Below are positions 9,551-35,142 of a DNA stretch of 64,000 nucleotides, piece by piece (the first letter of the stretch is position 1; each line of letters opens with the position of its first letter). The notes under the pieces are model-generated. The model ran no database searches, was not told where the DNA came from, and worked only from the letters and a program-made list of their open reading frames with translations. The stretch is taken from assembly GCA_001769805.1 (NCBI GenBank), contig MEPO01000032.1, positions 124,001 to 188,000 of the forward strand. The letters run 5' to 3'. Source of the DNA: Bdellovibrionales bacterium GWA1_52_35. GTDB taxonomy: Bacteria; Bdellovibrionota; UBA1018. A program made the translations under genes and the position numbers.

Positions 9551-9625
9551 TCCCCATCGTCTAGAGGCCTAGGACGGCGCCTTCTCACGGCGTAAACCGG
9601 GGTTCGAATCCCCGTGGGGACGCCA
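9551..9625 (+). tRNA. tRNA-Glu (anticodon CTC), CCA encoded
   Basis: Cloverleaf: GTCCCCA/TGGGGAC acceptor, GCGCC-TTCTCAC-GGCGT anticodon arm, CGGGGTTCGAATCCCCG T-arm, 3' GCCA. Confidence 0.95.
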
Positions 9626-9750
9626 AACAAAAGAGTATCCGCCTCCTTTTTGATGCTTATCGCGTCATCGCTACTGATTGCCCGTTTAATATTCTCAGTA
9701 CATTGTTTTTGAAACACCTACAGCGAGCGGTGGGGATTCGACGTGCGTAA

Positions 9751-9804
9751 ACGCCTGCCTACAGCCCTGAGAGCAACGAGATCGCAGAGGCATTCGTGAA
9801 ATAA
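9751..9804 (+). pseudogene. remnant of IS3-family transposase (OrfB) C-terminal region
   Basis: Frame reads TPAYSPESNEIAEAFVK*, matching the conserved 'YSPESNGMAEAFVKT' block of IS3-type transposases; preceded immediately by an in-frame stop. Confidence 0.7.
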
Positions 9805-10080
9805 TGGTCCCGCTTTTTACTCTGTCCCGCCTTTAACTCGGCCTAGCTCAAAATTGCCTTACATTCAGCGAAAAACGCTGATGGAGCATTTGAGTAAAAA
9901 CATTATAAACAGAATCTTTTCACTTATATCAAAAGCAGTTTCTTGCAAAAATACTGCCCGTGTCTGCTTAATTTAAACACCGCGTAAATAAGAATTGCGT
10001 TATTACCAGACTTTTCAATCTACTTGATTGCGTGCTCTTATGCCCTTCCCTCGGGACCTCGATTGGCTTAGATTCGATAT

Positions 10081-16233: not shown

Positions 16234-17384
16234 TGTATTTCATAGATGAAAAAGAACTCGACGCGATTCGGGCGGTTTTCGAACGCAAGCGGCTTTTTCG
16301 CTACCAGCCAGATGAAGGCGGCGAATGCGACCTTTTTGAGCGCGAATTTGAGCGCTACCTGCCGGTTCCTCATTCCCTCCTGGTCACGAGCGGGACCAAC
16401 GCCCTCATCGCAGCTTTGAAATCCGGAGGCATCGGTCCCGGTGATGAGGTCATCATCCCGGCTTATACCTTTGTGGCGACCGCTGCGGCCGTGGCCCAGG
16501 TCGGGGCGGTGCCGGTCATCGCGAATATCGATGAGACTTTGGGAATCTCCCCTTCCGATATCGAGGCGAAACTTTCTTCGCGCACCCGCGCGCTTCTCCC
16601 CGTGCACATGGACGGGCTGGCTGCGGATATGAATGCAATCACCCGGCTCGCTCAAAGCCGGCAGCTGCTCCTGATTGAAGATGTCGCCCAAGCCATCGGC
16701 GGCAGTTTCCAGGGGAGAAAGCTCGGAACCCTCGGGGACTTTGGCTGTTTCTCGCTCAACGAAAACAAAAATATCTCCTGCGGTGAGGGCGGGATCGTTA
16801 CGGCGACCAGTCGCGCCCGTTACGAGAACCTCTTCTGTCAGCACGACGTTTCGGCGCAGTATAATCCGGTCAAAAGCAGATTTTTCGTTGAAACCCGGCC
16901 TTTCCTGGGCAGCTCCATGCGGATTTCGGAAATTTCCGGAGCGATCATGCGCGTGCAGCTTTCACGACTGGACGAAATTCTCAGGCTCTTGCGCGAACGC
17001 AAAGCGATTTACCGCGAAGCGCTGGCCGGACTCAGGCAGGTCCGTTTGATTACCGGTAATTGTTCCGAAGGCGATTGTGGCTCTTCCATTCATCTTCTCT
17101 GCTCGGACCCCGGTTATGCCATTCAAGCCGGTCAGGCTTTAAGGAACGCTGGTTATCTTTTTGCGCCTGTTACCACGCGACCGGCGCATGCCGCCTGGAA
17201 ATGGCTGCCACTTCTGGACAAAGAACCGGCGCCGCGCGGGCAAGCGCCGAACCAGATGGCTCATTTCCTTCAATCGGTCGACGTCCTGACCCGCGTTTTG
17301 AGACTTGAGACCGATATTCATAAAAGCCTGGCGGCAACCCAGACGGACGCGCGGAGCGTTCGGCACATCTTGGAGAGCCTATAA
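16233..17384 (+). CDS. DegT/DnrJ/EryC1/StrS-family aminotransferase
   Basis: VTSGTNALIAALKSGGIGPGDEVIIPAYTFVATAAAVAQVGAVPV; EDVAQAIGGSFQGRKLGTLGDFGCFSLNENKNISCGEGGIV. Start overlaps the previous stop (TGATG). Confidence 0.92.
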   Translation: MYFIDEKELDAIRAVFERKRLFRYQPDEGGECDLFEREFERYLPVPHSLLVTSGTNALIAALKSGGIGPGDEVIIPAYTFVATAAAVAQVGAVPVIANIDETLGISPSDIEAKLSSRTRALLPVHMDGLAADMNAITRLAQSRQLLLIEDVAQAIGGSFQGRKLGTLGDFGCFSLNENKNISCGEGGIVTATSRARYENLFCQHDVSAQYNPVKSRFFVETRPFLGSSMRISEISGAIMRVQLSRLDEILRLLRERKAIYREALAGLRQVRLITGNCSEGDCGSSIHLLCSDPGYAIQAGQALRNAGYLFAPVTTRPAHAAWKWLPLLDKEPAPRGQAPNQMAHFLQSVDVLTRVLRLETDIHKSLAATQTDARSVRHILESL

Positions 17385-17387
17385 GCG

Positions 17388-19130
17388 ATGCAAAGCGATT
17401 CGGGCTCCTCGTTCATCGGGCTTGGCAAAACCCTCTTCAACTCCTCGGTCGCGCGCATCGTGGCGCCGGAAACAGACGCTCTCAACCGTGAACCCGAAAT
17501 CGACCTCATCCTGACAGAACGACTCAATCGCAAAAAAGCCTCTGGCGCCTGGCCTGAGCAGGCACTTTTGCGCCTGCTAGGAAATGCGCCGGAAGGCGCT
17601 CTTGATATTGCCGAAAATCGCGATGTCCTGCATCCCGCCGAGTGGGAAAGATTTCTCAATCAGCAATTTCCTTTTGCAGAATATTTGAAGAAGCGCGGCC
17701 TGGAACTGTTCAGCAGTTCAACCAATCCTTCGGTCGCCTTTGTCCCTCACCACCTTTGCCATGCCTCGGCAGCGCAGCTTTTTTCACCCTTTGATCGTTC
17801 GATCATCCTTGTGATGGACGGGGCCGGAACCCGTGCTGCGGATTTCCCCTCCGGACATCCCGAGATCCGGGAATTCGGACCACCGGGCGGGGCCGAATCA
17901 CTAGCCCACGAAGAATATTCCGTTTACCTGCACGACCTTAAATCGCTTCGCTGTGTTTACAAGAGCTGGCAGTTCTTCAAGCCAAGCCGAAGGCATCCCA
18001 GCCATCACTTCAGCGAGGGGCTCGGAACGCTGTATGAAAAATCCGCCGAGTATATTTTCAAGGACAAGCGCGCTTCCGGAAAAGTCATGGGGCTGGCATC
18101 TTTTGGAATCTCAACTCCCATTCACAACCGGCAGGAATTTCTGGATGTGCTGGACTGGAAACGGGCTTTTCAGGGCGGCGGAAAAGAACGCTGGGAAAAC
18201 TCCGGAGAGTTCAGCCATTACGCCGACCTCGCGGCCAGCATTCAGAATCATTATGAGGAAAGTCTCCAGCAGATCGCGTCCCAGCTCCGCGACCGGTACC
18301 CGGAATACCGGCAGCTGATCTTCACCGGGGGCTCGGCCCTCAACTGCACGAACAATATGAAGATGCTCGAGGCCGGGTATTTTGATGAAATTTACACGCC
18401 GCCGTTCCCCGGTGATGAATGCATTGGACTCGGTGCTGCCGCTCACCGATATTTCAAATCAAGCGCAACTGGCTGGCATGCCATGGGCCATAACCAGCAA
18501 CGCTCGTCTTTTGGTTCGCCGGCCTCCGTGCCAACCGAAAAAGAAATTCTGACAACCTTTGCAGACTTCCAGCTGGAACGTCCGTCGAATCTGGCTGACC
18601 AGTGCGCCGAGATGCTTGCAAATGGTAAAATTCTCGCCTGGTGCCAGGGACGAAGTGAGTGCGGCCCGCGGGCCCTGGGCCATCGGAGCATTCTCGCCCG
18701 ACCTGACCGCCCTGGAATCAAGGATTACCTGAACCGCTCCATTAAGTTTCGCGAAGCCTTCCGGCCGTATGGCGGGAGTTGTCTGCACGAGAAAGCACCG
18801 GAATACTTCAAGGTGCCCAACGGATTCAACAATCCCTTCATGTCCTTTGCGCCCGAGACCCGGCCTGAATACCGCAAAGCCCTCGCTGAGATCACACATC
18901 AGGACCTGCGGTCCCGCGTGCAGACCGTCCGGCGTCCGGCCAATCCGCTTTTTTATGATCTGATTGATTCCTTCGGTCAGAAAACAGGTCTCTTCTGCCT
19001 GCTCAATACGAGCTTGAACGTCATGGGCGAACCCATTGTCGAAACCGCTCAAGACGCTCTGCGGTTGCTGACCAGCACTCCGGTAGATGGTCTGATCATC
19101 GGAAATTTCCTGGTGCATAACAATGGCTGA
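17388..19130 (+). CDS. carbamoyltransferase, NodU/CmcH family
   Basis: VPHHLCHASAAQLFSPFDRSIILVMDGAG; FTGGSALNCTNNMKM; WCQGRSECGPRALGHRSILARP. Confidence 0.9.
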   Translation: MQSDSGSSFIGLGKTLFNSSVARIVAPETDALNREPEIDLILTERLNRKKASGAWPEQALLRLLGNAPEGALDIAENRDVLHPAEWERFLNQQFPFAEYLKKRGLELFSSSTNPSVAFVPHHLCHASAAQLFSPFDRSIILVMDGAGTRAADFPSGHPEIREFGPPGGAESLAHEEYSVYLHDLKSLRCVYKSWQFFKPSRRHPSHHFSEGLGTLYEKSAEYIFKDKRASGKVMGLASFGISTPIHNRQEFLDVLDWKRAFQGGGKERWENSGEFSHYADLAASIQNHYEESLQQIASQLRDRYPEYRQLIFTGGSALNCTNNMKMLEAGYFDEIYTPPFPGDECIGLGAAAHRYFKSSATGWHAMGHNQQRSSFGSPASVPTEKEILTTFADFQLERPSNLADQCAEMLANGKILAWCQGRSECGPRALGHRSILARPDRPGIKDYLNRSIKFREAFRPYGGSCLHEKAPEYFKVPNGFNNPFMSFAPETRPEYRKALAEITHQDLRSRVQTVRRPANPLFYDLIDSFGQKTGLFCLLNTSLNVMGEPIVETAQDALRLLTSTPVDGLIIGNFLVHNNG

Positions 19131-20550: not shown

Positions 20551-22022
20551 AAATCCATCCCAACGATCTGGATAGCGATGTCTGTCAAACGAGCATCGAT
20601 GTCCTTCGCAATAAGGTTCAACTCTGGCTTGCCGCCCGCCACCCGGGCGAGCCCGTCTATTTCCCCGATGACCAGAGCGCCTTGCCGCTTCCGCAGAACG
20701 ATCAACCGCTGAATATTGTTTTTTTCGGCGGATTTCTGCGGCGTTTTCTGGAATCCGGGAACTGGCTGCATCCCGGTTTTCGCATCTGGGTTCTCAGCCG
20801 GGCGGTTCAAAACACCTTGGTCAAACTGCTGGGCTTCTCTCAAAACCAGATCGGGATCATTCCCCGCTATGAACTTTTCGGTCGACAACCTGAAACCGCC
20901 CCCTTCATCCTGCGTCGCCCCACTCAATGGGTCTTTGCCGGACGGCTGTCGGCAACGAAGAATTTGACCATGCTTCTCGCCACAGTCTCAGCACTGCAAA
21001 CCCGGCATCAGCTCCCGGTCGAACTCCATCTCTCAGGGGAATTTGACGAGGAGATCCACGAAGACCGGGGACGGCGCGAGCGGGGTGGCTATCACGAACA
21101 TCTGATCGCCTTCAGCACCCAACTTCCTTGGACCAAACCTCCCATTTTCCACGCCCCCGCAGCCCCCACTGAATGGATCCGGAAATTCCGGGAGAATCCC
21201 TGTTTTGTGAGTTTTTCCACCTCGATTACCGAAGATTTCGGAGTCGCACTGGCGCAGGCGCAAGAGGCCGGCTGGCCCTGCCTGGTCTCAGATTGGGGTG
21301 GGCACCGAGATGCGGAAGGAAATAATATTCTAAAACTTCCTGCACCCCTTATCGGCAATAGCCACGAACCTTCTGAGCTGATTCGCATCAAAGGCTCCGC
21401 GCTCGCAGCCTGGCTCGTGAGAGAACAGAACCTGACCGGAAGTTCAGAGCCTCAAACCCCGAACTATCCGTCCCCGCTAACGACTCCCCTCACTCAGGTT
21501 GATCTGCTCCGCAGAGCCTTCATTACGGCACAGGACGGAGCGCCCATCGAAATTCAACGCTCCGGACCCGCTGCTTTTGCGGATACGGAGCAAGGACGCG
21601 TGTTCTACAGCCGGCATCGGCTCGCGTTTTCCAGTTCACCCCCTGATTCCTATGTTTTGGTTTTCGTCAATGATCTGCACCCGACGGCCGACTCAGCGCA
21701 GGCGGACCTGATCGCCCTTTGCAGTCACGCCTGGGAGTATTATTCCACAGACCAGAACCAAGCCGTGATCTACCTTTCGCTCCGCGAAGCAAACACCCCC
21801 GAAGGAGAGCTTCTGCTTTTCAAAGCGAAGCAGCTCATTCTGCCCTGGTTTGGCGCAAATACCCAAAAGATCCTCCGCGCTTTTGCCTCGCAACTCTCCC
21901 TTTGGCCTCCGCTTCTGGCCTGCGTTCCCGAGGGCACAACTCTTCAAACTCAAGCGAGTCTTCTTGCTTACTCGCCAGCCCATTTGCAAATGGAGAATCC
22001 TTTTCATGCCCGGAAAATCTAA
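20544..22022 (+). CDS. glycosyltransferase (group 1-like) with C-terminal extension
   Basis: WVFAGRLSATKNLTMLLATV; SFSTSITEDFGVALAQAQEAGWPCLVSDWGGHRD. Confidence 0.78.
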   Translation: MLKIHPNDLDSDVCQTSIDVLRNKVQLWLAARHPGEPVYFPDDQSALPLPQNDQPLNIVFFGGFLRRFLESGNWLHPGFRIWVLSRAVQNTLVKLLGFSQNQIGIIPRYELFGRQPETAPFILRRPTQWVFAGRLSATKNLTMLLATVSALQTRHQLPVELHLSGEFDEEIHEDRGRRERGGYHEHLIAFSTQLPWTKPPIFHAPAAPTEWIRKFRENPCFVSFSTSITEDFGVALAQAQEAGWPCLVSDWGGHRDAEGNNILKLPAPLIGNSHEPSELIRIKGSALAAWLVREQNLTGSSEPQTPNYPSPLTTPLTQVDLLRRAFITAQDGAPIEIQRSGPAAFADTEQGRVFYSRHRLAFSSSPPDSYVLVFVNDLHPTADSAQADLIALCSHAWEYYSTDQNQAVIYLSLREANTPEGELLLFKAKQLILPWFGANTQKILRAFASQLSLWPPLLACVPEGTTLQTQASLLAYSPAHLQMENPFHARKI

Positions 22023-22362
22023 TCTCTCCGGCCTCAAGTGCCATATCGTGAGCGACTCCATGCATCCCGTACTCAAAGTCGGTGACTGGGTTACACTCGA
22101 GCCGGTCGGGTCGCAGGAGTCATTAAAACGTTTTGACCTGATCGTTTTCAAAAGAGCTGACCGCGTGGTTTGCCATTATTTATGGAGGATTAACCAGCAG
22201 CTGCTTCCGGGCACCCTCGTCACACGATCCTTGAGATCCCCGCACCACGATGAATTTCCCGTTTCTTTTGCGGATATTTTGGGGCGAGTCACGCAGAAAA
22301 GGATTCCGGCCTGGACGCGAGCGGTTCTGATCCTCAGAACCCTGCTCAGGGGCACGACCTGA
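22006..22362 (+). CDS. S24/S26 (signal peptidase-like) family protein, apparently without TM segment
   Basis: IVSDSMHPVLKVGDWVTLEPV...LKRFDLIVFKRADRVVCHYLWRI...ILGRVTQKRIP. ATG at 22006 within the upstream gene's tail. Confidence 0.7.
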   Translation: MPGKSNLSGLKCHIVSDSMHPVLKVGDWVTLEPVGSQESLKRFDLIVFKRADRVVCHYLWRINQQLLPGTLVTRSLRSPHHDEFPVSFADILGRVTQKRIPAWTRAVLILRTLLRGTT

Positions 22363-23434
22363 AAAGTTCCTGAGCCAAGTCATAGGCCAGGCTTTCAAAA
22401 GCGGGTGAACAGAATTTCTTTCCGCTTCTGAACGCGCCTTTGACGGGGTACGATAGTTCTTCCCGGGCGAGGACCGGATTATTCCGAAACGACGCGAGCG
22501 CCTCAGAAGTCCGAAGTCGTTTAAAGCTCTCCTCCTTCTGGTGGAACCCGATCTCAAATTCGTGCAGGAGAGAAACAGGAAGAACCACAGGGAGTGCCTC
22601 CGGGCGATCCCCAGCACTGCCGGTCACCGAGGAATAATTGAGAGCCCCTCTCCGCATCAATTCATGAACGATGAAACTGTCTGAGTAATAAAAATCCACT
22701 TCATTCACATCCAGGAAAATCGTTCTCTGCAGCCCCCTTTGTAGCAATTCCGGCAGCGTGACTGGAGTCACGGGACTCCCCAGCTCCGCCTGCAGTTTCG
22801 CGATCATCTCAAAAGCATAGGGGTAAGACTCGACAAAACATTCTTTCCGGACCTGGAATTCTCCCGAAAAATAGACCAGACATTTGAACGAGATTTTGCC
22901 TGGCTGCTGTCCGGACCACTTCCTGATATTCGCGAGTTGCGCCGCCAGCCACTTCGGGCTGGCTTGACGTTCATCGATCAAGGTCAGAATGAAAACAAAA
23001 TCCTCGATCCGCTCCGCATCCAGCAACTGGTCTCTTGTAGTCCGGGTGGTCCGGGGCAAATACCACGCACTCTGGCCAATCCATGCTTCCGGGACCAGGT
23101 TGCGAAGCTTCCCAGGAATCAGGAGCAGCTGTTCGGCAACGGAAGGTTCAGGATGATGATAAAAATAATGCAGAAGTGACAAGGCCCCGTCCCGAACGAT
23201 CAAGGGTGAAAAATGTGCAAGAACAGCGTTATTTCTAGCTAAAAGAACAAAGAGCGGCCGCATGGCATGAAAGTACTCGATGGAATGAGGCACGATGAAT
23301 TCAAGGAAGCGTTCTGCCGTACGGCCCTTTCGACTCCAGCTACGCTCCTCCCAGAAGCCACTCGTGGCGGCAATTCCTTCAGCACTGGCGCGAACAATCC
23401 GTTCACGAATGGAGGATTCAGAGATATTTTTCAT
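22346..23434 (-). CDS. hypothetical protein (no family recognised)
   Basis: Long ORF, starts inside the 3' end of the upstream GT gene (overlap ~17 bp); MKNISESSIRERIVRASAEGIAATSGFWEERSW... Confidence 0.65.
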   Translation of the reverse strand: MKNISESSIRERIVRASAEGIAATSGFWEERSWSRKGRTAERFLEFIVPHSIEYFHAMRPLFVLLARNNAVLAHFSPLIVRDGALSLLHYFYHHPEPSVAEQLLLIPGKLRNLVPEAWIGQSAWYLPRTTRTTRDQLLDAERIEDFVFILTLIDERQASPKWLAAQLANIRKWSGQQPGKISFKCLVYFSGEFQVRKECFVESYPYAFEMIAKLQAELGSPVTPVTLPELLQRGLQRTIFLDVNEVDFYYSDSFIVHELMRRGALNYSSVTGSAGDRPEALPVVLPVSLLHEFEIGFHQKEESFKRLRTSEALASFRNNPVLAREELSYPVKGAFRSGKKFCSPAFESLAYDLAQELFRSCP

Positions 23435-24716
23435 AAACCTTCCGGTACAGGGCGGAATAGCCGGTGCCACTCCGGAACGGGGAATCGGGATACGCTTCAA
23501 ATGCCTGAGCAACCTGTCGAAAAAGAGGACTGAATCCCGAAAAGCGCTGCTTCGTATCGCGCCGCCCCTGCTGCTCGCTCTTCAGAACCCCGGCTACCGA
23601 CGAGATCGACAGATACTCCGCCGCTCGCTTGGCCAGAGTCTCACGGGAAAAACCTTTTTCAGCTTGAGCAGCCATTCCGATCATGGCCTGAACACAGCCC
23701 TCAAAAGCTGGGCTCACGCGTTTTTCTTCAATTCGCACCGGTACCCGGGCGACCAGGCCCGCATCGGTACCCACACCGGAAAACGAAGAGTAGCCGCCCC
23801 AGTCACTCAGAATCAACGGAAGCCCGCAACAGGCCGCCTCAGCCGGCGCCATTCCAAAATCTTCATCGTTATGAGTGCTCAAGCTGATGAAAAAATCAGC
23901 GGCGCCGTAGATCTGAACCAGCATCTCCGTCTGGAGATCTCCAAAATAGCGAACCTGCCGGCTCGCTTCAGGAGGAATGGTCTTGCGGATGGCTTCAAGT
24001 AAATCACTCGAGAAAGTCCCGCTCAGGCAGCGCTTCCCCAGATAGGGAACCCCCAGGTCATCCATCGGCCCCGCCAACCAGAGCTGCGCCCTCGGATCAA
24101 TCTGCCGGAGGTAAGCTCCAAAACTCCTGATCAGGAGAATGAGGTTCTTCTGGAGACTGAGGCGCCCGGTATAGAGAAAGACCAAGTCGCCTGCTGGGAC
24201 GCCTGCTTGCTTCCTGAATCCCGCTCGTGCCTGACTGGAGGACGGCCGGAACTCCTGGGTGGAAACTGGAAAAGGAGCGATCCTGATCTGCGCAGCCCCC
24301 CCTTGCACAAATGACCCGATCAGTTGCCGCTGTTTCTCGGAGGCACAAAAGAATGTAACATCAAGCGCCTTTAAAACCTGCTCACAGCCGACCCACTGTA
24401 CTGCGTGCAAGGTGAAATCACCAAAAACATGGACGAAAATCCGGGGCGGTTTTGGAATGTTTTGAGAGAGGGCCTGCAGCAAGGTCCCGGGAAAGGGCGA
24501 ATGATCAATGAAGACCAGAAGGTCCGGAGCAAACTCTGAAACCGTCCGAGCCGTCTGGATCGCAACGTAGGGATTGACCTGTGCTTCACAGAAAATATCG
24601 CGAAACTCCGCCTTCGGGAACGCAAGCCGGTAGGCCTGCGCCAGGTTACGAGTGATGGAGCGACAGCTGGTCCAGTCCGAGAGATGAGATCTGTAAATCA
24701 AAGCGATTTTTTCCAT
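23418..24716 (-). CDS. glycosyltransferase (group 1-like)
   Basis: LVFLYTGRLSLQKNLILLIRSFGAYL; FISLSTHNDEDFGMAPAEAACCGLPLILSDWGGYSSF. Confidence 0.82.
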   Translation of the reverse strand: MEKIALIYRSHLSDWTSCRSITRNLAQAYRLAFPKAEFRDIFCEAQVNPYVAIQTARTVSEFAPDLLVFIDHSPFPGTLLQALSQNIPKPPRIFVHVFGDFTLHAVQWVGCEQVLKALDVTFFCASEKQRQLIGSFVQGGAAQIRIAPFPVSTQEFRPSSSQARAGFRKQAGVPAGDLVFLYTGRLSLQKNLILLIRSFGAYLRQIDPRAQLWLAGPMDDLGVPYLGKRCLSGTFSSDLLEAIRKTIPPEASRQVRYFGDLQTEMLVQIYGAADFFISLSTHNDEDFGMAPAEAACCGLPLILSDWGGYSSFSGVGTDAGLVARVPVRIEEKRVSPAFEGCVQAMIGMAAQAEKGFSRETLAKRAAEYLSISSVAGVLKSEQQGRRDTKQRFSGFSPLFRQVAQAFEAYPDSPFRSGTGYSALYRKVYEKYL

Positions 24717-24800: not shown

Positions 24801-25538
24801 ATGAATAAAGAGAATCAAGAGACCGGAAAAGTTATTACACAGGGTGTCGTATCGCGAAGAAATCAGGACGGGACAGTCATTCTCATGAAACTGGATGAGT
24901 CCAATCTCTTTTTCAAGATAGACGGAATTGCCGCGGCAACCTGGGGAGAATACGAGAATCCGGTCACGCTCAACGCCCTGATCGAGAAATACTCAGCTGT
25001 TTATACTGAAAACCAGGACCAACTCACCCGGGACCTGACCGCGTTTCACCAGGAGCTCAGCCGGAGGGGCCTCATTGTTTCGACAACCGGCGCTCAAACG
25101 CTCCAAAAGACGACCGGGACTCCAAGCCCCCTCAAGAAAGTCACTCCCTACTGCTTCGGCAGCATCAAGGAATTCAATCTGGAGCAGATTGAAACCGAAG
25201 TTCTGAGCGAAAGCCTGTATTTGGATGTTTTTGCCGGGTCCGACCTTCGTCTGAAAAAAGACATCACTCCGATCGCAAATGCACTTGATCAAGTGCTTCA
25301 GTTGGATGGAGTTCATTTTGAGTGGAAAAACGCGGATGCTCCCCAAGGCCTGCAGGCCGGCCTCATTGCCCAGCAAGTGGCCGCCGCGATGCCCGAATTG
25401 GTTCGCAAGGACTCTGAGTCTGGCATGCTCGCCGTCAATTATCCGAAGATGACTTCCTATCTGGTTGAAGCCATCAAGACGCTGAACACTCAAGTGCGTA
25501 CGCTGGAAGACCGGATCAAAGAACTGGAATGCAACTGA
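24801..25538 (+). CDS. PqqD-like (RiPP-recognition-element-like) domain fused to Peptidase_S74 intramolecular chaperone domain
   Basis: N-term VILMKLDESNLFFKIDGIAAATWGEYENPVTLNALIEKYSAVYTENQDQLTRDLTAFHQELSRRGLIV (PqqD-like); C-term GSDLRLKKDITPIANALDQVLQLDGVHFEWKN...GLIAQQVAAAMPELVRKD..GMLAVNYPKMTSYLVEAIKTLN (S74). Confidence 0.8.
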   Translation: MNKENQETGKVITQGVVSRRNQDGTVILMKLDESNLFFKIDGIAAATWGEYENPVTLNALIEKYSAVYTENQDQLTRDLTAFHQELSRRGLIVSTTGAQTLQKTTGTPSPLKKVTPYCFGSIKEFNLEQIETEVLSESLYLDVFAGSDLRLKKDITPIANALDQVLQLDGVHFEWKNADAPQGLQAGLIAQQVAAAMPELVRKDSESGMLAVNYPKMTSYLVEAIKTLNTQVRTLEDRIKELECN

Positions 25539-26293
25539 TCCGATCCTGGATCCAGATCCGTTCTCTCACCGCGGCCCAGATCCGGGCTCGTTACCGCAGA
25601 ACGATTGCCGGGTTTTTCTGGGTCGTCCTGAGTCCTCTTATCATGTATGCGGCCCAGGCGACTGTCTTCAAACACATCCTGAAGATCGGAATTCCTCATT
25701 ACGGAATTTTTCTTCTCAGCGGCCTTCTGCCCTGGCTTTTTGTCGTGAATACGCTCGAAATGGGAATCCCCGTTCTCCGTAGCTCCCGGGATCTCCTGGG
25801 CTCGTTCCGAATCCCGCCTCATTGGCTGGTTTTGAGTGTCGCGCTCGACAATGCTATCAACTTCGCTGCGGCCACGCTGATCGTACTGATCCCGATGATT
25901 GCTTTGCTTCGCCCGCCCATGGGAGGTCTCTGGACACTTCCCTTCAGCTTTCTTATCCTGGTGATCGGGACTGCGGCGCTAACCTCCTGGCTCGCGGTTC
26001 TGAACGTCTTCTTCCGGGACACCCGCTTTGTGGTTCATTTCCTGATCAGTGTGCTCTTTTTTTTGACGCCGGTTTTCTACCCTGCGGAGCTGATTCCGGA
26101 ACCCTGGAGGCAGGGAATTCTACTGAATCCGGTTTACATCCTTTTGGAGCCGCTGCGCCTGGGCATCTATGGTTACAGTTTCCCGAAGTTCCTGGCCTCA
26201 TTCGGGCGCTCACTCGTGGTCTGCGGTCTTTTCGTGTCCATTGCGGTATTTTCCTGGAGGAGGCAGAAGAATGAATTCTATCACTTCCTCTAA
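25529..26293 (+). CDS. ABC-2 type exporter permease (Wzm/TagG-like)
   Basis: RYRRTIAGFFWVVLSPLIMYAAQATVFKHIL; LFFLTPVFYPAELIPEPWRQGILLNPVY. Confidence 0.88.
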   Translation: MQLIRSWIQIRSLTAAQIRARYRRTIAGFFWVVLSPLIMYAAQATVFKHILKIGIPHYGIFLLSGLLPWLFVVNTLEMGIPVLRSSRDLLGSFRIPPHWLVLSVALDNAINFAAATLIVLIPMIALLRPPMGGLWTLPFSFLILVIGTAALTSWLAVLNVFFRDTRFVVHFLISVLFFLTPVFYPAELIPEPWRQGILLNPVYILLEPLRLGIYGYSFPKFLASFGRSLVVCGLFVSIAVFSWRRQKNEFYHFL

Positions 26294-27068
26294 GCCCATC
26301 CTGGAGATCGAAGATCTGCATCTGTTTTTCAAGATCCGGCATTTCCACAGCCCCACGCTTCGCGACGCTTTCGTCAATTTTTTGCGAGCCCCCCTGGAAA
26401 CACTTCTCGGCCCCTCAGAATCTCTCCCGGTTCTCCGGGGGATCCATTTGAAGTTGCATCGTGGAGAGCGCCTGGGTCTGATCGGAGTCAATGGTTCGGG
26501 CAAAACGAGTCTTTGCCGCTGCATAGCGGGAATGTTGACCCCCACTGCGGGGAACATCGTTCTGAACGGCCATTGCCGCGCCATTTTCAACCCTCAGATC
26601 GGGGTCATTCCCGAGCTCACCGGAAGGGAGAACGCCCATCTGCTCGCCCAGCTGATCTACCCTGAACTGGAGCACAAAGAACTTCAGGCGATCACCGCTG
26701 AATCGATGGAATTCTCGGAACTCGGGCATTTTCTGGACACGCCATTTGAAAACTACAGCCAAGGAATGCGCGCGCGCCTTTGCCTTTCGCTGATGACTGC
26801 CAGAAGTTGCGATCTTTTGATCCTCGATGAAGTCACCGACAATACTGATCAGTTCTTCCGGAAGAAGATGGAAGCCCGGCTGCAGAACTTCCTCTCAGGA
26901 GCAGGAGTGGTTCTCTTTGTCAGTCATTCAATGGATCATCTGGAAAAAGTCTGTGATCGGGCAGCGATTCTGCACGAAGGGAAGATCGCTTTTGAAGGTC
27001 CCCTCTCAAAAGCCATGGAGGCCTACTCGTTTTTGAACCAGACGCCTTTGGAAAGTTTCAATAAATGA
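26271..27068 (+). CDS. ABC exporter ATP-binding protein (Wzt/TagH-like)
   Basis: Walker A GVNGSGKTSL, signature YSQGMRARLCLSL, Walker B DLLILDEV. Confidence 0.9.
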   Translation: MNSITSSKPILEIEDLHLFFKIRHFHSPTLRDAFVNFLRAPLETLLGPSESLPVLRGIHLKLHRGERLGLIGVNGSGKTSLCRCIAGMLTPTAGNIVLNGHCRAIFNPQIGVIPELTGRENAHLLAQLIYPELEHKELQAITAESMEFSELGHFLDTPFENYSQGMRARLCLSLMTARSCDLLILDEVTDNTDQFFRKKMEARLQNFLSGAGVVLFVSHSMDHLEKVCDRAAILHEGKIAFEGPLSKAMEAYSFLNQTPLESFNK

Positions 27069-28411
27069 AGCCCCCTGCCCCCCCCCTCCCTGAAGCCTTC
27101 TGTGCGGCCAAATGGCTTCAGGTCACGATCGATCTGGCCAACGGCACCACCCATAGCTGCCATCATCCTGAGCGACATCGCATCCCTGAAGAGGAATTGA
27201 AAACGAATCCCTCCGCGCTTCACAACACCTCCTTCAAGAAATCAGTGCGACGACAGATGCTGGAGGGAATCCGTCCGAAGGAGTGCTCCTTTTGCTGGAA
27301 GCTTGAGGATGAGACGGCGACAGGAATTTCCGATCGCTTCATCAAATCTTCAGACCCGTGGGCGGCCCCTTACCTGGATAATCTTCTCAAAATGCCCTGG
27401 GACGCGGATGTGAATCCCACTTACCTCGAGGTCATGCTCGACGACCTCTGCAACTGTTCCTGTATTTACTGCCTCGGAAGCATCAGTACAAGTGTCGCCA
27501 GTGAGATGCACCGTCATGGACCGTACCCGGTCGCCGCCTGGCGCAATCGAATGCCCCTTCCAAACCCTCCTCGGGACCCGCAAGTTTATTCGGACGCTTT
27601 TTACCGCTGGTTGCCTGAGATCCTGCCCTCTCTCCACGTTCTGAGAATTACGGGAGGAGAGCCCCTGCTCAGCCCCAAATGGGCACAGCTCCAAGCGCTT
27701 CTCCGGGGGCAGAAAAGTCCGAAACTGACTCTCGCCCTGAACTCCCATCTCAGTCACCCTCCCGATCGTTTTGATGCTTTTCTGAAAGATTTCAGAGCAC
27801 TGAAAGATTCCGGGCACGTGGGTGCGCTCGAGCTTTTTACCAGTCTTGACGCCTGGGGCGGGGAAGCCGAGTACATCCGTCACGGGCTGGAGCTGGAGCT
27901 CTGGCAGAGAAATATCCGAGCTTTTGCTGAAGCCCTTCCGGGGACGCCGATCATTGTGATGTGCACTTTCAATCTGCTCTCTTTCTCTGGAATCCGAAAG
28001 CTTCTGGAAGAGATTCTGGAGATGAAAAAGATTCACTCCCAGCTCTGCATTGACGCCGCTCTCCTGAGGTATCCTGAGTATCTCTTCCCTGATCTAGCCA
28101 CTCCCGAGCTGAAGGCAAAGCTGACCAGCGCGCTGGATTTCATGAAAGCCGCCCGTCAGCCTGGGTTCACGACTCATGAAATCCAGAAATTTCAGAATAT
28201 CCATGAAGCTCTGGAATGCCCGATGGCGGAGGAGGAACTGGCGCGCCTGAGGGCCGATTTCTACCGCTTTATTCACGAGTTTGACCGTCGCAAAGGCTCT
28301 GTGTTTTTGACCCATTTTTCGGAATACCGGGACTTCCTGATCGAGTGCAAAAAAGCCTTTCTCGCAACTCTTGGGTCAAGCGGGAGCAGACCTGGGTCTT
28401 TAACCCCCTGA
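27065..28411 (+). CDS. radical SAM protein with N-terminal twitch/SPASM-like domain
   Basis: FCAAKWLQVTIDLANGTTHSCHH...CSFCWKLED; LEVMLDDLCNCSCIYCLGS; ITGGEPLLSPKW. ATGA overlap with the ABC ATPase gene. Confidence 0.82.
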   Translation: MKPPAPPLPEAFCAAKWLQVTIDLANGTTHSCHHPERHRIPEEELKTNPSALHNTSFKKSVRRQMLEGIRPKECSFCWKLEDETATGISDRFIKSSDPWAAPYLDNLLKMPWDADVNPTYLEVMLDDLCNCSCIYCLGSISTSVASEMHRHGPYPVAAWRNRMPLPNPPRDPQVYSDAFYRWLPEILPSLHVLRITGGEPLLSPKWAQLQALLRGQKSPKLTLALNSHLSHPPDRFDAFLKDFRALKDSGHVGALELFTSLDAWGGEAEYIRHGLELELWQRNIRAFAEALPGTPIIVMCTFNLLSFSGIRKLLEEILEMKKIHSQLCIDAALLRYPEYLFPDLATPELKAKLTSALDFMKAARQPGFTTHEIQKFQNIHEALECPMAEEELARLRADFYRFIHEFDRRKGSVFLTHFSEYRDFLIECKKAFLATLGSSGSRPGSLTP

Positions 28412-28478: not shown

Positions 28479-29432
28479 ATGAAAAAGATTCACGGGGTAC
28501 GCCGGAAGTCCGTACTGGGTTTTACGTTGATTGAAACCATGGTTGTTTTGGGCATTCTCGCGGGCGCCTCTGCCATGGTTGCAGCCCTGATGCAGAATAT
28601 GAACCGGGGGCAAGTCCAGTTCATGCAATCAATGGCGTTGCAAGACATGATCACCGAAATCACTCAGTACTTGAGGGATCCTGGAGCCTGCAAACAAACG
28701 ATGACAGCGGCATCCATTCCTGGACCGGGGGGAAGCACGAACATCGCTGCAATAAAAAACAGCACAGGAACAAACGCAGTTCAAGTGAATCAAGAGTACG
28801 GAAGCGGGTTCGGCAAAATCAAACCGGTTTCATTTAAATTAAAAAATACCGGTCCTGCACCGGCAAATCAAAAGATTCTGACAACCTATCTGGAGGTCGG
28901 TTATCAAAAAATGAAAATGCCCACTGGCTGGCATCCCACTCAATATAAAAGTATCAACATCACCGTTCAATCATCCGGAGGCCCCGTAACCGTGATTGGC
29001 TGCGCAACCGATGCCAATATCATGAGTGAAGCCATGTGCACAGCTCTGGGAGGGGCTTACGATTTCAGCGATTCTCGGTGCAAGGAGCTGAACCTGATCG
29101 GACCCACGAGCCTCAGTGGCGCAACGAGCCTGAACGGTCCAGTCAATATCACTGGAGCCACCACCGTGAACGGGAATGCCACGGTTACAGGAAACATCGT
29201 CGCGAACAGCTCGTCAATCGGAACGCTGACGGTGGCGGCAAATGCGACGGTCAGTGGCTTAATGGCGGTCACTAATGCAAACCTGAACGGCACTCTCATC
29301 TTAAACGGAGCGGGAAGGCTTTGTGGTGCAACCGGCTGTATGACTCGATTTCCTCAGGGAGTTTGCACCGGAGCGAAGCAAGTCATGCTTGGGATTTCTG
29401 GAGGCAACGTGATCTGCGGAACGAAGTGGTAG
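28479..29432 (+). CDS. type IV pilin-like protein with repetitive beta-solenoid-like region
   Basis: Prepilin signature MKKIHGVRRKSVLGFTLIETMVVLGILAGASAMVAAL; repeats GPTSLSGATSLNGPVNITGATTVNGNATVTGN. Confidence 0.75.
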   Translation: MKKIHGVRRKSVLGFTLIETMVVLGILAGASAMVAALMQNMNRGQVQFMQSMALQDMITEITQYLRDPGACKQTMTAASIPGPGGSTNIAAIKNSTGTNAVQVNQEYGSGFGKIKPVSFKLKNTGPAPANQKILTTYLEVGYQKMKMPTGWHPTQYKSINITVQSSGGPVTVIGCATDANIMSEAMCTALGGAYDFSDSRCKELNLIGPTSLSGATSLNGPVNITGATTVNGNATVTGNIVANSSSIGTLTVAANATVSGLMAVTNANLNGTLILNGAGRLCGATGCMTRFPQGVCTGAKQVMLGISGGNVICGTKW

Positions 29433-31408
29433 CGAACTTGAAACTATGGCTGCGTAATAGCCGGGCCCTCGATTATGCCGGCTGGAAAAGTGATTTTGAC
29501 CTGACCCTCTGGTGCCAGAATATCGCTCCAGAAACGATCTCAATCCTGGCGCACTGGCACTCGAGACTTCGACAATTCTTCCCAATCCTGGGGGAAGCCG
29601 CATTCATCACTGACAGGAATATTGACCTCATTATCAAACATCAGAACCCCCTGGAGCTTCGCCGCGACCCGGTCCTCCTGCGTAGCCTGCGTAAAAGGAA
29701 TCTTGAACGTTGTACGCCCAGCACCGCTCAGAAATTTGTCTATTTCGCCAGAATGCTGGACGCTGATTTCGCGAATATCAGCACCGGCAACCTCGACAAC
29801 AGACGGAAGAAATGGTCGTTTCATTTTTCAGAATTACAGATCTCCCTCCCTTTTTCTGCGCTGAATATGAAATCTCTGCTTGAAGCTGCAAAACCTTTTC
29901 TGCCATTACATCAAGACGAGGCGACAGCAGCACTCGAGGCCCGCCGTTTGGGTGCGGAGGAACTCTCGCTTGGCTCGTTTCTGCTATTCACCCAGCGGTG
30001 GAATCGCCACGCCCATGCTTCTGGTTTCATAAAAAATATCAAAGCGCTTCCGGCTCTCACATCGGAACAGAAGGAGATAGTGTACGAGCAGGTTCGTTGG
30101 GAGCTCACCAATCTTTCAATGCAACCGGCTCAAAATCTGGAGGCACTCAAAGGTCATGTGCGCACGCTTGCGAACCTCCTTGAATTCACGAAAGATCCGA
30201 GACGCAACGAGCTGATTCACGAATTTTCGGCTTACTGGGGGCTAGATCCCGAGCCGCTACTCTCCCCGTTATTTGCGAGCACCGTCTCTCCCACTTTCTG
30301 CATCCTCCCGTGGTTCCGTCTCCACTTTGATTCAGACGGTTCGTACCTGCTTTGCGAGCACTCCCAGGCCCGTTTCCCGGGACTCAACTGGAATGAGCGA
30401 GATCTGTCTTCTCTCGCCGCTGAACCCGAACTTCTGCAGCTCTGGCGAAAGATGAAAGAAGGAGAACTCCCGCCGCAGTGCAAAAGTTGCAGTACCCCGC
30501 GGCTCGAGGCAAATCGCTTCTATGACGAAGAAATCAACCGGGGTCTGCCTCTTTTTGAACCGAGAGAACTCGTCCTGTCCTTGGGGCGCGACTGCGAACG
30601 TCAGTGCCTGAGCTGCAATCCCGGTCAATCTTCCCGCTGGGCGGAGTTTCTTAAACCGCAGGTTGAAGACCCTTCGTACAACTGGCATAGCAAGCCACTT
30701 TTTCAGAATGCCGCCCCAGGGCTTCTGGCCCAAGTCCAGAAAATCACTTTCTCTCATTGTGAAACACTCCAGGACCCCACTCATCCGCAGCTCCTGCAAG
30801 GCCTCATCGAGTCGGGCAAAGCCCGGGATATCGCGCTGATTTACTTTACCCGCGGCGACGTTGATTTATCAGAATGGTTCCCTCGCTGGGAGACCTTCAA
30901 AAGCGTGGAACTGCGAATCGACTTTGAAGGTGTAGGAGCCAGAAGCGACTACCTCTGCGCACCCAGCCGATTCTCGGACTTGGAGTCCAACCTGTCAAAA
31001 GTTCAGCAGAGCGCCCGAAGAGCAACGAATATCAACCTCGTGTTCCAGATCCAACTCTATTGCCTCAATGCCTATTACCTCTCAGAGTGCCTGGCCTGGC
31101 TTGAATCCCAAGGTACCGGATTTCATCCGGGTCTGTTCGTCACCAGTCATCCGGCGCCGAGCGGACTTTCCGCAATTCCTCCAGAACTCAAGAAGGCCCT
31201 GAGGGAAAGATGGCTCGCTCCTGAAACTTCCGAAGGGTCGCTGGCGAAATGGGTTCCAAGGCCGGTAATTCTGCAATTGCTCGGGAAAATGGAGGAAGCG
31301 GACTTGAGCCCCCTGCCGATGATCCGGCTCTTAGGCAAACTGGATCAGCTCCGAAATAAAAAATTTGCTGATCTTTTTCCGGAGATTGCGCCATATTGGA
31401 AATCATGA
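29426..31408 (+). CDS. radical SAM-like protein with N-terminal extension and twitch/SPASM-like domain
   Basis: FCILPWFRLHFDSDGSYLLCEHS...CKSCSTPRLEAN; LVLSLGRDCERQCLSCNPGQ. Start probably GTG 29426 or TTG 29436. Confidence 0.75.
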   Translation: MVANLKLWLRNSRALDYAGWKSDFDLTLWCQNIAPETISILAHWHSRLRQFFPILGEAAFITDRNIDLIIKHQNPLELRRDPVLLRSLRKRNLERCTPSTAQKFVYFARMLDADFANISTGNLDNRRKKWSFHFSELQISLPFSALNMKSLLEAAKPFLPLHQDEATAALEARRLGAEELSLGSFLLFTQRWNRHAHASGFIKNIKALPALTSEQKEIVYEQVRWELTNLSMQPAQNLEALKGHVRTLANLLEFTKDPRRNELIHEFSAYWGLDPEPLLSPLFASTVSPTFCILPWFRLHFDSDGSYLLCEHSQARFPGLNWNERDLSSLAAEPELLQLWRKMKEGELPPQCKSCSTPRLEANRFYDEEINRGLPLFEPRELVLSLGRDCERQCLSCNPGQSSRWAEFLKPQVEDPSYNWHSKPLFQNAAPGLLAQVQKITFSHCETLQDPTHPQLLQGLIESGKARDIALIYFTRGDVDLSEWFPRWETFKSVELRIDFEGVGARSDYLCAPSRFSDLESNLSKVQQSARRATNINLVFQIQLYCLNAYYLSECLAWLESQGTGFHPGLFVTSHPAPSGLSAIPPELKKALRERWLAPETSEGSLAKWVPRPVILQLLGKMEEADLSPLPMIRLLGKLDQLRNKKFADLFPEIAPYWKS

Positions 31409-32445
31409 GAGCGGCTCAGGTGATCCATTTCGTTTTTCATGAGATCCGGGTTCGAGTCAAGAGCGACTGCCCTGAACTTCTTGACCGCCTCAAGAGTGAT
31501 TTCAGCCAATATGCAGTTGGCGAATCACTGCTGCCAAAACTCACGGTGGAAGGATTTCTTTCTCAACCCTCTTCTGGGCTTCGTGATTCATTTCCCGTCC
31601 GGCCGATCCGGACCCGGAATGCCGATATCCGTGATGTCGGCCACAAACGCTTCTCAGACTACTCCGGCGCAGGCTGGTCGGTTTTTGATTTCGAAAAAGA
31701 ATCCGCCCATGTTTTCAGCCCCAGGCTGGATCGCCTGCATGAAATAACCTACCTCCTGATCTTATCGAGAGTGGGGAAACATCTCGACCGGGCAGGCCTG
31801 CACCGCATACATGCCATGTCCATTGCCGTCAGGCAGAAAGCCCTCATTCTTCTGCTCCCCATGAAGGGCGGGAAGACCACCCTTCTCTCATATCTGGCAG
31901 AGCAGGCACTCGCCTCCGGGGTGGGCGGATTATCCATTCTTTCAGACGATTCTCCTCTGGTGAGCCGGACAGGCCTGGTCCGCGCTCTTGCCCTGCGGGC
32001 GGGTACCCTGCAAAACCAGCTGACTCTGGGGGCTTTGTCCCTCAAGAAGCCGGCCTATGAGCTGGATCGAATGCGTTATGGAAGAAAGTATCTTTTTCCG
32101 ATCGAGAATTTCGGGTGCCCAGTATCCAAAGAAGAGCATGGCGAGATCGTCCTTGTCTTAGGAAGGCGGACAAGCCGGAGCGAACCGGAAGTCCGCCCTC
32201 TGAACGCGTTGTGGATTTTGCCCACCCTTTTTTCACAGATGGTCATCGGCGCAGGGCTTCCCATGATGCGCGAGTACTTTATCGAAAACCGTCCACGTGA
32301 CTATCTCCTTCTGGTCAGGATCGCTTGGTCACGCCTGATAGCTGCTTACCGGCTTCTGAGACGATCCACGATTCATGAGCTGCAGCTGAGCACCGACTCT
32401 TCCAAAAATGCAGCCCTGGTGACCCAAATCATGGAACGAGAATAG
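31396..32445 (+). CDS. HprK-like (HPr kinase/PEPCK-superfamily) protein
   Basis: ALILLLPMKGGKTTLLSYLAEQALASGVGGLSILSDDSPLV; RMRYGRKYLFPIE. Confidence 0.7.
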   Translation: MEIMRAAQVIHFVFHEIRVRVKSDCPELLDRLKSDFSQYAVGESLLPKLTVEGFLSQPSSGLRDSFPVRPIRTRNADIRDVGHKRFSDYSGAGWSVFDFEKESAHVFSPRLDRLHEITYLLILSRVGKHLDRAGLHRIHAMSIAVRQKALILLLPMKGGKTTLLSYLAEQALASGVGGLSILSDDSPLVSRTGLVRALALRAGTLQNQLTLGALSLKKPAYELDRMRYGRKYLFPIENFGCPVSKEEHGEIVLVLGRRTSRSEPEVRPLNALWILPTLFSQMVIGAGLPMMREYFIENRPRDYLLLVRIAWSRLIAAYRLLRRSTIHELQLSTDSSKNAALVTQIMERE

Positions 32446-32482: not shown

Positions 32483-33937
32483 ATGAAGAACTCCAGCGTG
32501 TTTGCAGTCTTTCTGCTCATCGTATTTGTTCTCTATGGGTTTTCGCTCCCATTCCCTTTCTTCATCTTCGATGACCCCCAGCATATTTACGCCAATCCCA
32601 TTTTTCATCCCGTAAAGATGGAAAGCCTCCAATGGATTTTTTCCGAATCCATCATGAGCCTGCCCTATGCCCTCTGGGCAGCGCTGGCCAGTATCTTTGG
32701 GACCGCCAACCCCATTCCTTATCGCTCCCTGAACCTTCTACTGCATGGGGTAAACTCCGCGCTGGCATTCCTGGTTCTAAAACAGCTGCTTCCACTTTTC
32801 TGGGCTAAAAAGCCGGAATACCAGAAGTATACGACTGCGGCGGCTCTTCTCGGGGCGACCCTCTTCTGTGTTCATCCGGTGCAAGTCGAAACCGTGGTTT
32901 GGATATCCTGCCTGAAGGATTTGCTCGCAGGACTGTTTTCACTTTTGGCCCTCTGGCTCTTTCTCAAAACGATGAGTTCCCCGGATCTTTCCGTTCCGAA
33001 TCGCCGACTGGGTCTGGCCTGGAGTGCCATCATCCTGCTTATGGGAATGTTCGCCAAGATTTCAGCTGCGGGCTACGCCCTGGTCCTGATTTGGCTGCAT
33101 CAGCTATTTTTCAGGACCCATCAGCGCAAGGCCTTTGCACTCATAAGTCTGCTCCTGCTCGGCTTTGCGGCAGCCTTTTACACTGTCTATGTCCATCACG
33201 TGCCGGAAACACTCCTGCCTTTCATTCCCACCGCCGGGCAGCGACTTTTCATCGCGTCTGATGCTTTCCTCTTCAATCTCCGACAACTCTTCATCCCCTA
33301 CGAGTACTTTTTCCTTCATGGACGAACCCCTCTTCGGGTCTTGTTGACCTACTCGGAAGCCCCCCTCATCACGAGCGTTCTTCTGATTGGACTCTTGGGC
33401 GCATTGGCGGTTCTGGCCTGGGGGGCGAAGAATCCCCGCCTGCGAGCGGCTCATGGGGTGATCTTTCTAATCCTGCTTTCAACTTTGCCGACTCTGGGCG
33501 CGGTTCCATTTGCCCATCAGAATCTCTCCACTACGGCCGACCATTACCTCTATCTCGCGGTTCTGGGCGTAGCGCTGGCGGCGGGACTGGCCTTCCCCTT
33601 GGTTCTCAAGGCTAGAAAGCCGCTTTCCTGGATTTCCATTTTTGTGCTGGTCGCGGCTTTCACCACCAAGACCTGGGTACAGCAGAAAATCTGGAAAGAT
33701 TCCGAAAGCTGCATCCAGTACACTCTGGACGTCGCCCCTTTGAGCGATACTGCCCATGATGCCGCAGGATACCTTCGCGCGAAGGGGGGCCAGCTGAACG
33801 AAGCAGTTGAACACTTCGCCGCCGCTCAGAATATCCGCAATCAGATCAAAATCATCACAGCGGAATCGCTCGCACCCGCGGCTGCCGAGTCACCGCGCCC
33901 CAAGCTGTTGCCCGATTTCTGGAGCTCTTCACAATGA
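32483..33937 (+). CDS. polytopic membrane protein, TMTC/O-mannosyltransferase-like
   Basis: FPFFIFDDPQHIYANP; PYRSLNLLLHGVNSALAFLVLKQL; GATLFCVHPVQVETVVWISCLKDLLAGLFSLLALWLF. Confidence 0.75.
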   Translation: MKNSSVFAVFLLIVFVLYGFSLPFPFFIFDDPQHIYANPIFHPVKMESLQWIFSESIMSLPYALWAALASIFGTANPIPYRSLNLLLHGVNSALAFLVLKQLLPLFWAKKPEYQKYTTAAALLGATLFCVHPVQVETVVWISCLKDLLAGLFSLLALWLFLKTMSSPDLSVPNRRLGLAWSAIILLMGMFAKISAAGYALVLIWLHQLFFRTHQRKAFALISLLLLGFAAAFYTVYVHHVPETLLPFIPTAGQRLFIASDAFLFNLRQLFIPYEYFFLHGRTPLRVLLTYSEAPLITSVLLIGLLGALAVLAWGAKNPRLRAAHGVIFLILLSTLPTLGAVPFAHQNLSTTADHYLYLAVLGVALAAGLAFPLVLKARKPLSWISIFVLVAAFTTKTWVQQKIWKDSESCIQYTLDVAPLSDTAHDAAGYLRAKGGQLNEAVEHFAAAQNIRNQIKIITAESLAPAAAESPRPKLLPDFWSSSQ

Positions 33938-35142
33938 CGGCTTTCTGCATTCTTCCCTTTCTCCATGTGATGCTTCACCAGGATGGAAAGATTCAGACCT
34001 GCTGCCGGGGAGGTGAACTGGCGCATGCGTACGGGTCACTGCAAGCTGAACCTTTTGAGAAAATCTGGAACGGCCCCGCCGCTCGCTCGATGCGCTGCGC
34101 ACTCCTGGAGGGAAACGCCTTGCCCCAATGCGAGACCTGCTACCGCGAAGAGGCCCAAGGCAAGGCGAGCCTGAGAACAACGAGCCTCGAGCAATTCAAA
34201 GAGAGTCTGCATTTAAGTGCGACAACGGCTCCCGACGGAACTGTTCCCGGAGAGCAGCTCAGGTACCTGGGGCTTCGACTTTCGAACCACTGTAATCTCC
34301 GCTGCCGAACCTGCAGCCCGGGAAGCAGCTCGGCCTGGGCGCAGGATGGCCTGGCCCTGAGTGGCAAAAACGCGAACAATGAAACCACTTCGCTGGACGA
34401 AGGCAAACTCTGGCAAACGCTCACGCCACTTCTCCCTCAGCTGAAGCAGATCTATTTTGCCGGTGGGGAGCCACTTCTTCATAAAATGCATTACCGAATA
34501 TTGGAAGAGCTGCTGGCTTGCGGTCGGACGAATCTGAGCCTCGTTTACAACTCCAATCTGAGTGTTCTCAAATTTCAGAACTGGGATATCAGCGCGCTTT
34601 GGAGTCGGTTCCGGCAGGTCGAGGTGAATGTCAGCTTTGATGGAATCTTTGCGCAATCAGACCTTCTACGCAACAATTCGAGCTGGCTGCAGCTGGAAGC
34701 GAATTTTGAGACTCTCCGCAGGACTCTTCCCGGGCTGCACCTCAAGATCAATCCAACGGCCAGCGTGATGAATGCTTTCCATCTGATTCCAGCCCTTCAA
34801 TACTGGATTGAGCGAGGCTTCCTGAAAAACCCCGGTGATCTGACGCTCAATATTCTGGACTTCCCCCGCCATTTCAATCTGCAGATCCTCAATCTGACCG
34901 AACGCTCGCGATTGAAATCTGAGCTGACCCGTTTTCTGGACAAGCTTGCAGCAAAGCTGAACCCTGAATTCCATCAGTCACTCGTGGTGGAACTTAGACC
35001 CTTGCTGGCACTCTGTGATTCCCCCGTTTATTTCGAAGCGGAGAGACAGATTTTCCGGACAGTGACTTTCAAACTGGATCGCTTGCGCAAAGAAAAATTC
35101 GTAGATCATTTCCCCGAGCATTTCGGACTGCTCTATGAGTAA
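33934..35142 (+). CDS. radical SAM protein with N-terminal twitch/SPASM-like domain
   Basis: FCILPFLHVMLHQDGKIQTCCRGG...CETCYREE; LGLRLSNHCNLRCRTCSPGSSSAW; FAGGEPLLHKMHY. ATGA overlap with upstream gene. Confidence 0.88.
   Translation: MTAFCILPFLHVMLHQDGKIQTCCRGGELAHAYGSLQAEPFEKIWNGPAARSMRCALLEGNALPQCETCYREEAQGKASLRTTSLEQFKESLHLSATTAPDGTVPGEQLRYLGLRLSNHCNLRCRTCSPGSSSAWAQDGLALSGKNANNETTSLDEGKLWQTLTPLLPQLKQIYFAGGEPLLHKMHYRILEELLACGRTNLSLVYNSNLSVLKFQNWDISALWSRFRQVEVNVSFDGIFAQSDLLRNNSSWLQLEANFETLRRTLPGLHLKINPTASVMNAFHLIPALQYWIERGFLKNPGDLTLNILDFPRHFNLQILNLTERSRLKSELTRFLDKLAAKLNPEFHQSLVVELRPLLALCDSPVYFEAERQIFRTVTFKLDRLRKEKFVDHFPEHFGLLYE

Follow-up and report, generated by a model that had tools for sequence, protein, structure and literature searches.

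We suggest that a family of small proteins in Bdellovibrionota, here referred to as LS74, are RiPP-type precursors that carry a self-cleaving, trimerising Peptidase_S74 (S74) domain as a C-terminal follower, and that a PqqD protein serves as their RRE. In the window, i.e. the whole stretch of 64,000 nucleotides analysed here, the RRE and its putative precursor are fused into one polypeptide. We give this model a probability of about two in three. LS74, PqqD and the genes of the surrounding cluster point to an undescribed way to make and release a modified peptide in predatory-type Bdellovibrionota.

Results

A PqqD domain, a leader-like motif and an S74 domain in one polypeptide

An earlier note, made from the DNA sequence, had read the fusion protein (Table 1) as a PqqD domain joined to an S74 chaperone domain, and both domains were recovered by Pfam as well as by comparison of structures. 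PF05402 (PqqD) matched residues 33-92 of the fusion protein with 28.8 bits (cut-off 23.4), while PF13884 (Peptidase_S74) matched residues 147-202 with 64 bits (cut-off 22). The junction serine named in the note was also borne out: Ser147 is encoded by the codon TCC at 25239-25241, lies inside GSDLRLKKDI and is followed at +5 by Lys152. This spacing is the same as in the Ser/Lys dyads S587/K592 of MyRF and S911/K916 of endoNF, and cleavage of MyRF falls just before the dyad serine (PMC8326128). Trimerisation and self-cleavage are predicted functions of the S74 domain in the fusion protein. The PqqD domain of the fusion is the sole PqqD match in this genome at E <= 0.001, and three further S74 matches lie elsewhere in the genome within open frames of 514-557 aa. 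Because the stop codon of the fusion gene overlaps the start (25529) of the ABC-2 transporter gene, the two genes are probably co-translated.

In the AlphaFold2 model of the fusion protein (mean pLDDT 86.5; about 90 for the PqqD half), the PqqD fold is followed by a strand (residues 122-126, IKEFN) and a helix (127-137); residues 141-144 are loosely structured, and the S74 domain carries a long helix at its C-terminus (residues 214-244). The strand at 122-126 has a pLDDT of about 90 in the presence of S74 and is kept at pLDDT 83 in a model of residues 1-146. In the shorter model, the PqqD strands are the only possible partners, and the strand at 122-126 therefore probably pairs with the PqqD sheet, a pairing that derives from the secondary-structure assignment of monomer models and not from coordinates. 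The models are consistent with the YxFGGIxEF leader adding a beta strand to PqqD in the way that leaders dock on lasso RREs. In Foldseek, the top solved structures were those of the lasso RRE TbiB1 crystallised with a leader (5v1u, 5v1v; E 4e-4, TM 0.84 by target length), followed by the radical-SAM enzyme TigE and then by the intramolecular chaperones 3gud and 3gw6. At the level of sequence profiles, the PqqD half matched TbiB1, PbaB1 and LppB, and the S74 half the tail fibre 6f45 and MyRF (7dc3).

Table 1. Features of the window and of other PqqD loci of the phylum
Feature	Locus	Positions	Strand	Remarks
SPASM/radical-SAM protein	window	14263..15417	-	homologue immediately downstream of S74 gene in L036, L037
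DegT-type aminotransferase	window	16197..17384	+	PF01041
Carbamoyltransferase	window	17388..19130	+	PF16861, PF02543
Two glycosyltransferases	window	19123-20550 and 20544-22022	+	PF00534
Archaeal-type signal peptidase I-like protein, candidate leader peptidase	window	21850..22362	+	weak PF10502; true start uncertain
X388, conserved protein	window	22346..23512	-	homologues in LS74 clusters
Glycosyltransferase, divergent from fusion gene	window	23418..24716	-	PF00534
PqqD-leader-S74 fusion protein	window	24801..25538	+	245 aa by translation
PqqD/RRE winged-helix domain	window	24828..25085	+	residues 10-95; PF05402 above cut-off
Leader-like motif TPYCFGSIKEFN	window	25140..25178	+	residues 114-126; YxFGGIxEF kept in 31 homologues
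Candidate core LEQIETEVLSESLYLDVFAG	window	25179..25238	+	residues 127-146; most conserved part of family
Peptidase_S74 domain	window	25239..25535	+	Ser147/Lys152 dyad; C-terminal helix 214-244
ABC-2 type exporter membrane protein	window	25529..26293	+	PF01061; homologues in LS74 clusters
ABC exporter ATPase	window	26271..27068	+	PF00005
Twitch radical-SAM protein	window	27065..28411	+	NF033640 262 bits, cut-off 170
Pilin-like protein	window	28479-29432	+	prepilin N-terminus, bactofilin-like repeats
Nucleotidyltransferase-like N-terminus, twitch radical-SAM C-terminus	window	29321..31408	+	true start uncertain
HprK-like kinase candidate	window	31396..32445	+	GxxxGKT-like and DDSP motifs
Twitch radical-SAM protein	window	33934..35142	+	NF033640 346 bits
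SPASM/radical-SAM protein	window	36429..37487	-	PF13186, PF04055
Sixth radical-SAM protein, probable	window	40013-41227		used only as homology-table reference
Short precursor-like peptide	L137	8300-8563	-	YFFGELKKIELSEDDT and Pro-rich tail
Short precursor-like peptide	L138	10698-10955	+	YFFGELKKIELSEDDT and Pro-rich tail
Two precursor-like ORFs	L140	3603-3767 and 3787-3963	-	e.g. KYYFGGLKKKKIILPVYASPTGGT
Precursor-like peptide	L141	1829-1999	+	NFKFGQIKKIAST...HGGSGTCTS
PqqD fused to precursor-like tail	L142, G085	2739-3236	-	FGGIKKENI...CGGCGGATLFCT; without S74
PqqD, divergent to leader-S74 gene	L135, G042	9425-9778	-	
Leader-S74 protein	L135, G042	9801-10373	+	190 aa; leader FQFGDLKKI, Gly/Ser-rich core

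The conserved unit comprises leader, linker and S74 domain

A profile of the part of the fusion protein that follows PqqD (linker-S74) was used to search 369 Bdellovibrionota genomes. The profile was matched throughout by 31 small proteins from 17 genera and three families of this one phylum; these are the LS74 proteins, and all of them also match PF13884. Hundreds of ordinary S74 proteins matched the profile from about position 40 onward only. The ordinary S74 proteins of the phylum are pilin-like or secreted and align from the S74 domain on only, and the possibility that LS74 is an ordinary bacterial S74 surface protein was rejected for this reason. The consensus of the 31 proteins reads YxFGGIxEFNLExIExEVLNDSxYLDVFAG/SDxxFK, with the slash before the dyad serine. 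The 19 residues in front of this serine (ExIExEVLNDSxYLDVFAG) are near-invariant, with a mean column entropy of 0.62 bits versus 1.76 bits in the first 60 S74 residues and with invariant Tyr, Asp, Val, Phe, Ala and Gly. Such strict conservation suggests that this segment either gives a conserved product or has a structural role. The dyad lysine is present in 31/31 proteins and the serine in 30/31. The remaining protein (L092, 9675-10100, minus strand, genome G148) is a natural variant with Cys in place of Ser (GCDPLFK) and retains the Lys. Another LS74 protein (L081, 9540-10049, plus strand, genome G121) has a tandem double leader motif (YYFGGIE ... YDFGGIEEYNL).

The PqqD profile was run over the same 369 genomes, with a strong match defined as E <= 3e-15 in LS74 genomes and with a similar threshold (E <= 4e-14) in the other 338. 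PqqD is present in 30/31 LS74 genomes versus 5/338 others (Fisher p = 8.6e-38, the counts being genomes and not independent evolutionary events). The LS74 genome in which the profile search detected no PqqD is G080. In two of the five genomes with PqqD and no LS74 (G090 and G106), the cluster reaches the end of the contig, so the LS74 gene may be located beyond it. The two genes are on the same contig in 25 genomes, 1 bp to 17 kb apart, and on different contigs in two. In L036 and L037, which are from the same class, they are adjacent and encode a PqqD protein of 93-107 aa and a linker-S74 protein of 151-158 aa, with a radical-SAM gene directly after the latter. Fusions are present in three genomes, i.e. 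in the window, L008 and L068, and because the three fused proteins group together in the LS74 tree (SH-aLRT 91), one fusion event suffices to explain them. Thus, the PqqD-S74 combination described in the earlier note is real and recurs outside the window, either as a fusion or as neighbouring genes, but the conserved unit is leader, linker and S74, to which the partner gene PqqD became joined on a single occasion.

LS74 genes lie in clusters with radical-SAM, exporter and polysaccharide genes

In the window, the gene set extends from about 14.2 to 37.5 kb and encodes five radical-SAM proteins, among which are the neighbouring twitch enzymes that had been noticed before and that match NF033640. 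The protein with a nucleotidyltransferase-like N-terminus matches this family with 158 bits, slightly under the cut-off, and shares an SDxDLT motif with standalone homologues. The HprK-like candidate had no match in Pfam or NCBIfam, and X388 had none in Pfam. Among 30 LS74 neighbourhoods, twitch/SPASM radical-SAM proteins are encoded in 29, glycosyltransferases in 26, nucleotidyltransferase-like proteins in 20 (at motif level), X388, the ABC exporter and carbamoyltransferases in 19 each, DegT proteins in 18, archaeal-type signal peptidase-like proteins in 16, PMT-like proteins in 12 and HprK-like proteins in three. None of these gene types is present in a small control of five neighbourhoods of ordinary S74 genes. 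In the signal peptidase-like proteins of LS74 clusters, Ser, His and Asp are conserved in homologues, and for the homologue in L069, TIGR02228 (archaeal signal peptidase I) gave an E-value of 5e-8, a match that falls short of the curated cut-off. From the glycosyltransferases, carbamoyltransferase and aminotransferase, one would rather expect a glycan in which the peptide is possibly a minor part, a point against the precursor model. Genes comparable to the pilin-like gene of the window are present in some other LS74 clusters.

The leader motif recurs on short ORFs near other PqqD genes

PqqD loci of the phylum that lack LS74 contain short ORFs with a YxFGGIxEF-type leader motif (Table 1). Like LS74, the peptides of L137, L138, L140, L141 and L142 have an FG[GEQR][IL]KK/KE leader that is beside PqqD or fused to it; unlike LS74, they are without S74 and have variable Pro-rich or Gly/Cys-rich cores. 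The short peptides of L137, L138, L140 and L141, with their FGx[IL]KK leader, are apparently undescribed RiPP candidates, and the S74 protein of L135 is a candidate for a second kind of S74-tailed precursor. In L142, the RRE-precursor fusion without S74, the tail is also given as FGGIKKENI...SCGGCGGATLFCT. In the non-LS74 proteins from these loci (302,684 aa in total), the strict leader motif occurs four times, a count that is descriptive because the motif was defined after viewing these sequences. The four ORFs (L135, with S74, and the S74-less L137, L138 and L141) are all small and near PqqD genes. Thus, the resemblance of the linker to RiPP leaders, which the earlier note had pointed out, is supported in that no other part of the 31 homologues is as conserved as the linker and its motif recurs in S74-less peptides next to PqqD.

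Discussion

Based on these data, we suggest a model in which the LS74 precursor consists of the N-terminal leader YxFGGIxEF, the core LExIExEVLNDSxYLDVFAG and the C-terminal S74 follower. PqqD would take up the leader as a further strand of its beta sheet and present the precursor to the twitch radical-SAM proteins, to the nucleotidyltransferase-like protein and possibly to the HprK-like kinase, as well as to the archaeal-type signal peptidase-like leader protease, which would set the N-terminus of the product. The S74 domain would trimerise and cut before Ser147 to leave the C-terminus ...YLDVFAG. The released core of ~20 residues would then be exported via the ABC exporter, and the glycosyltransferases would complete a product that is perhaps glycosylated. 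In the window genome, where RRE and precursor are one polypeptide, recognition would occur in cis. To our knowledge, the C-terminus of known RiPP precursors is set by the stop codon or a dedicated protease. A precursor role, which had been offered as a guess from the sequence, is strengthened by the conservation of the linker, the co-occurrence of S74 and PqqD, the shared leader motif and the modelled docking. As to the further proposal that these proteins represent a new Bdellovibrionota RiPP class, with an RRE-bound precursor, a self-cleaving trimeric follower, release of the core by two cuts, presentation on a trimer and fusion to the RRE in one lineage, we find the case for and against evenly balanced.

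Of the described systems, LS74 clusters come closest to that of the linear polyphosphorylated peptides (LPPs), RiPPs of Bacillota with LppA/LppB/LppS clusters (Popov et al. 2026, PMC13381572). LPP sets comprise the RRE LppB, an HprK-like kinase, an NTP transferase and an exporter and lie in capsule loci; LppS is a signal peptidase-like leader protease that cuts only with the RRE, and the precursors have up to 200 aa and a conserved N-terminal leader (PMC13381572). LPPs are described as restricted to Bacillota, and radical SAM, tail-fibre domains and Bdellovibrio are not mentioned there (PMC13381572). LS74 clusters share with LPP clusters the RRE, an archaeal-type signal peptidase-like protease (in the window itself with a weak PF10502 match), the ABC exporter and sugar/polysaccharide genes; for the nucleotidyltransferase and, in the window, the HprK-like kinase, there are candidates at motif level without family matches. 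By contrast, the LS74 precursor ends in S74 and has an invariant core, there are several twitch radical-SAM enzymes, and the phylum is a different one. The LPP leader YxxPxVLxHQxIxFETxxS is replaced by YxFGGIxEFNL in LS74, in which the canonical [Y/W]xxP motif is absent, and because of this difference in the leader we do not file the LS74 system as LPP.

The likeness to the lasso RRE TbiB1 and its TbiA leader (5v1u, 5v1v) lies in the fold and sequence of the PqqD half and in the modelled beta strand of the leader; however, the LS74 precursor is unrelated to TbiA, and neither a lasso macrolactam synthetase nor a B2 protease was present among the window cluster ORFs scanned with Pfam, i.e. most of them. 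Overall, the LS74 pathway resembles LPP or lasso-type RRE pathways, and by this analogy may work like them. As in endosialidase tailspikes and MyRF (3gw6, 3gud, 7dc3), the S74 domain has the +5 Ser-Lys dyad and the C-terminal helix and sits C-terminal to the part to be released. However, what lies upstream is a short leader and core (plus RRE) instead of a beta-helical fibre or DNA-binding domain, and LS74 is without a signal peptide or pilin N-terminus. The long fibrous part before S74 and the phage context that mark phage tail spikes and fibres were absent. In the open-access literature, we found no paper that combines S74 with PqqD or a precursor peptide and no report of an RRE fused to its precursor.

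Because the core is conserved beyond what is seen in diversifying RiPP cores, it could instead be structural. In this case, LS74 might be a trimeric adaptor or scaffold that is recruited by PqqD for the assembly of a surface glycan; the segment before Ser147 would be structural or dock on the exporter or a glycosyltransferase, and any self-cleavage would merely mature the scaffold. Such a role would fit not only the almost invariant core but also a cluster rich in glycosyltransferases with a carbamoyltransferase, DegT and a polysaccharide-type ABC exporter. It does not, however, account for the recurrence of the leader motif next to PqqD genes on short peptides with no other similarity, among them the PqqD-peptide fusion of L142, or on the S74 precursor of L135 with its wholly different Gly-rich core, and RiPP clusters typically encode signal peptidase I-like proteases and radical-SAM enzymes. 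We, therefore, regard a scaffold as unlikely, while giving it serious consideration.

PQQ and mycofactocin also arise from precursors, and mycofactocin loci likewise combine PqqD, radical SAM and glycosyltransferase. The invariant Tyr, Asp, Val, Phe, Ala and Gly of the core would suit a small conserved molecule of this kind, with S74 only making the required C-terminus; but no PQQ or mycofactocin equivalog reached its cut-off among the radical-SAM proteins scanned, and the cluster is large and polysaccharide-like, which makes a cofactor-like product improbable. It is hardly credible that the fusion arose by chance or from a phage, or reflects an assembly error, and has no function of its own. 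Phage tail fibres often carry S74 domains, but the leader-S74 unit has thirty further homologues in which the linker is conserved, and PqqD is fused to it in two more genomes. Conservation across 17 genera contradicts a chance fusion, which was rejected. An origin from a phage or plasmid was also rejected, because, among the matches listed for phages and plasmids (IMG/VR scan, tblastn), the S74 domains were all of the ordinary tail-fibre kind.

If the precursor model is correct, a self-cleaving, trimerising chaperone as the follower of a precursor would represent a new maturation logic, and S74 domains, known from fibres and transcription factors, would gain a place in peptide biosynthesis. 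The RRE-precursor fusion found in nature offers a single-chain system, ready for the study of recognition in cis. The strict core across 17 genera suggests that the product is conserved and not diversifying, and, under the precursor model, LPP-like pathways would extend to Bdellovibrionota.
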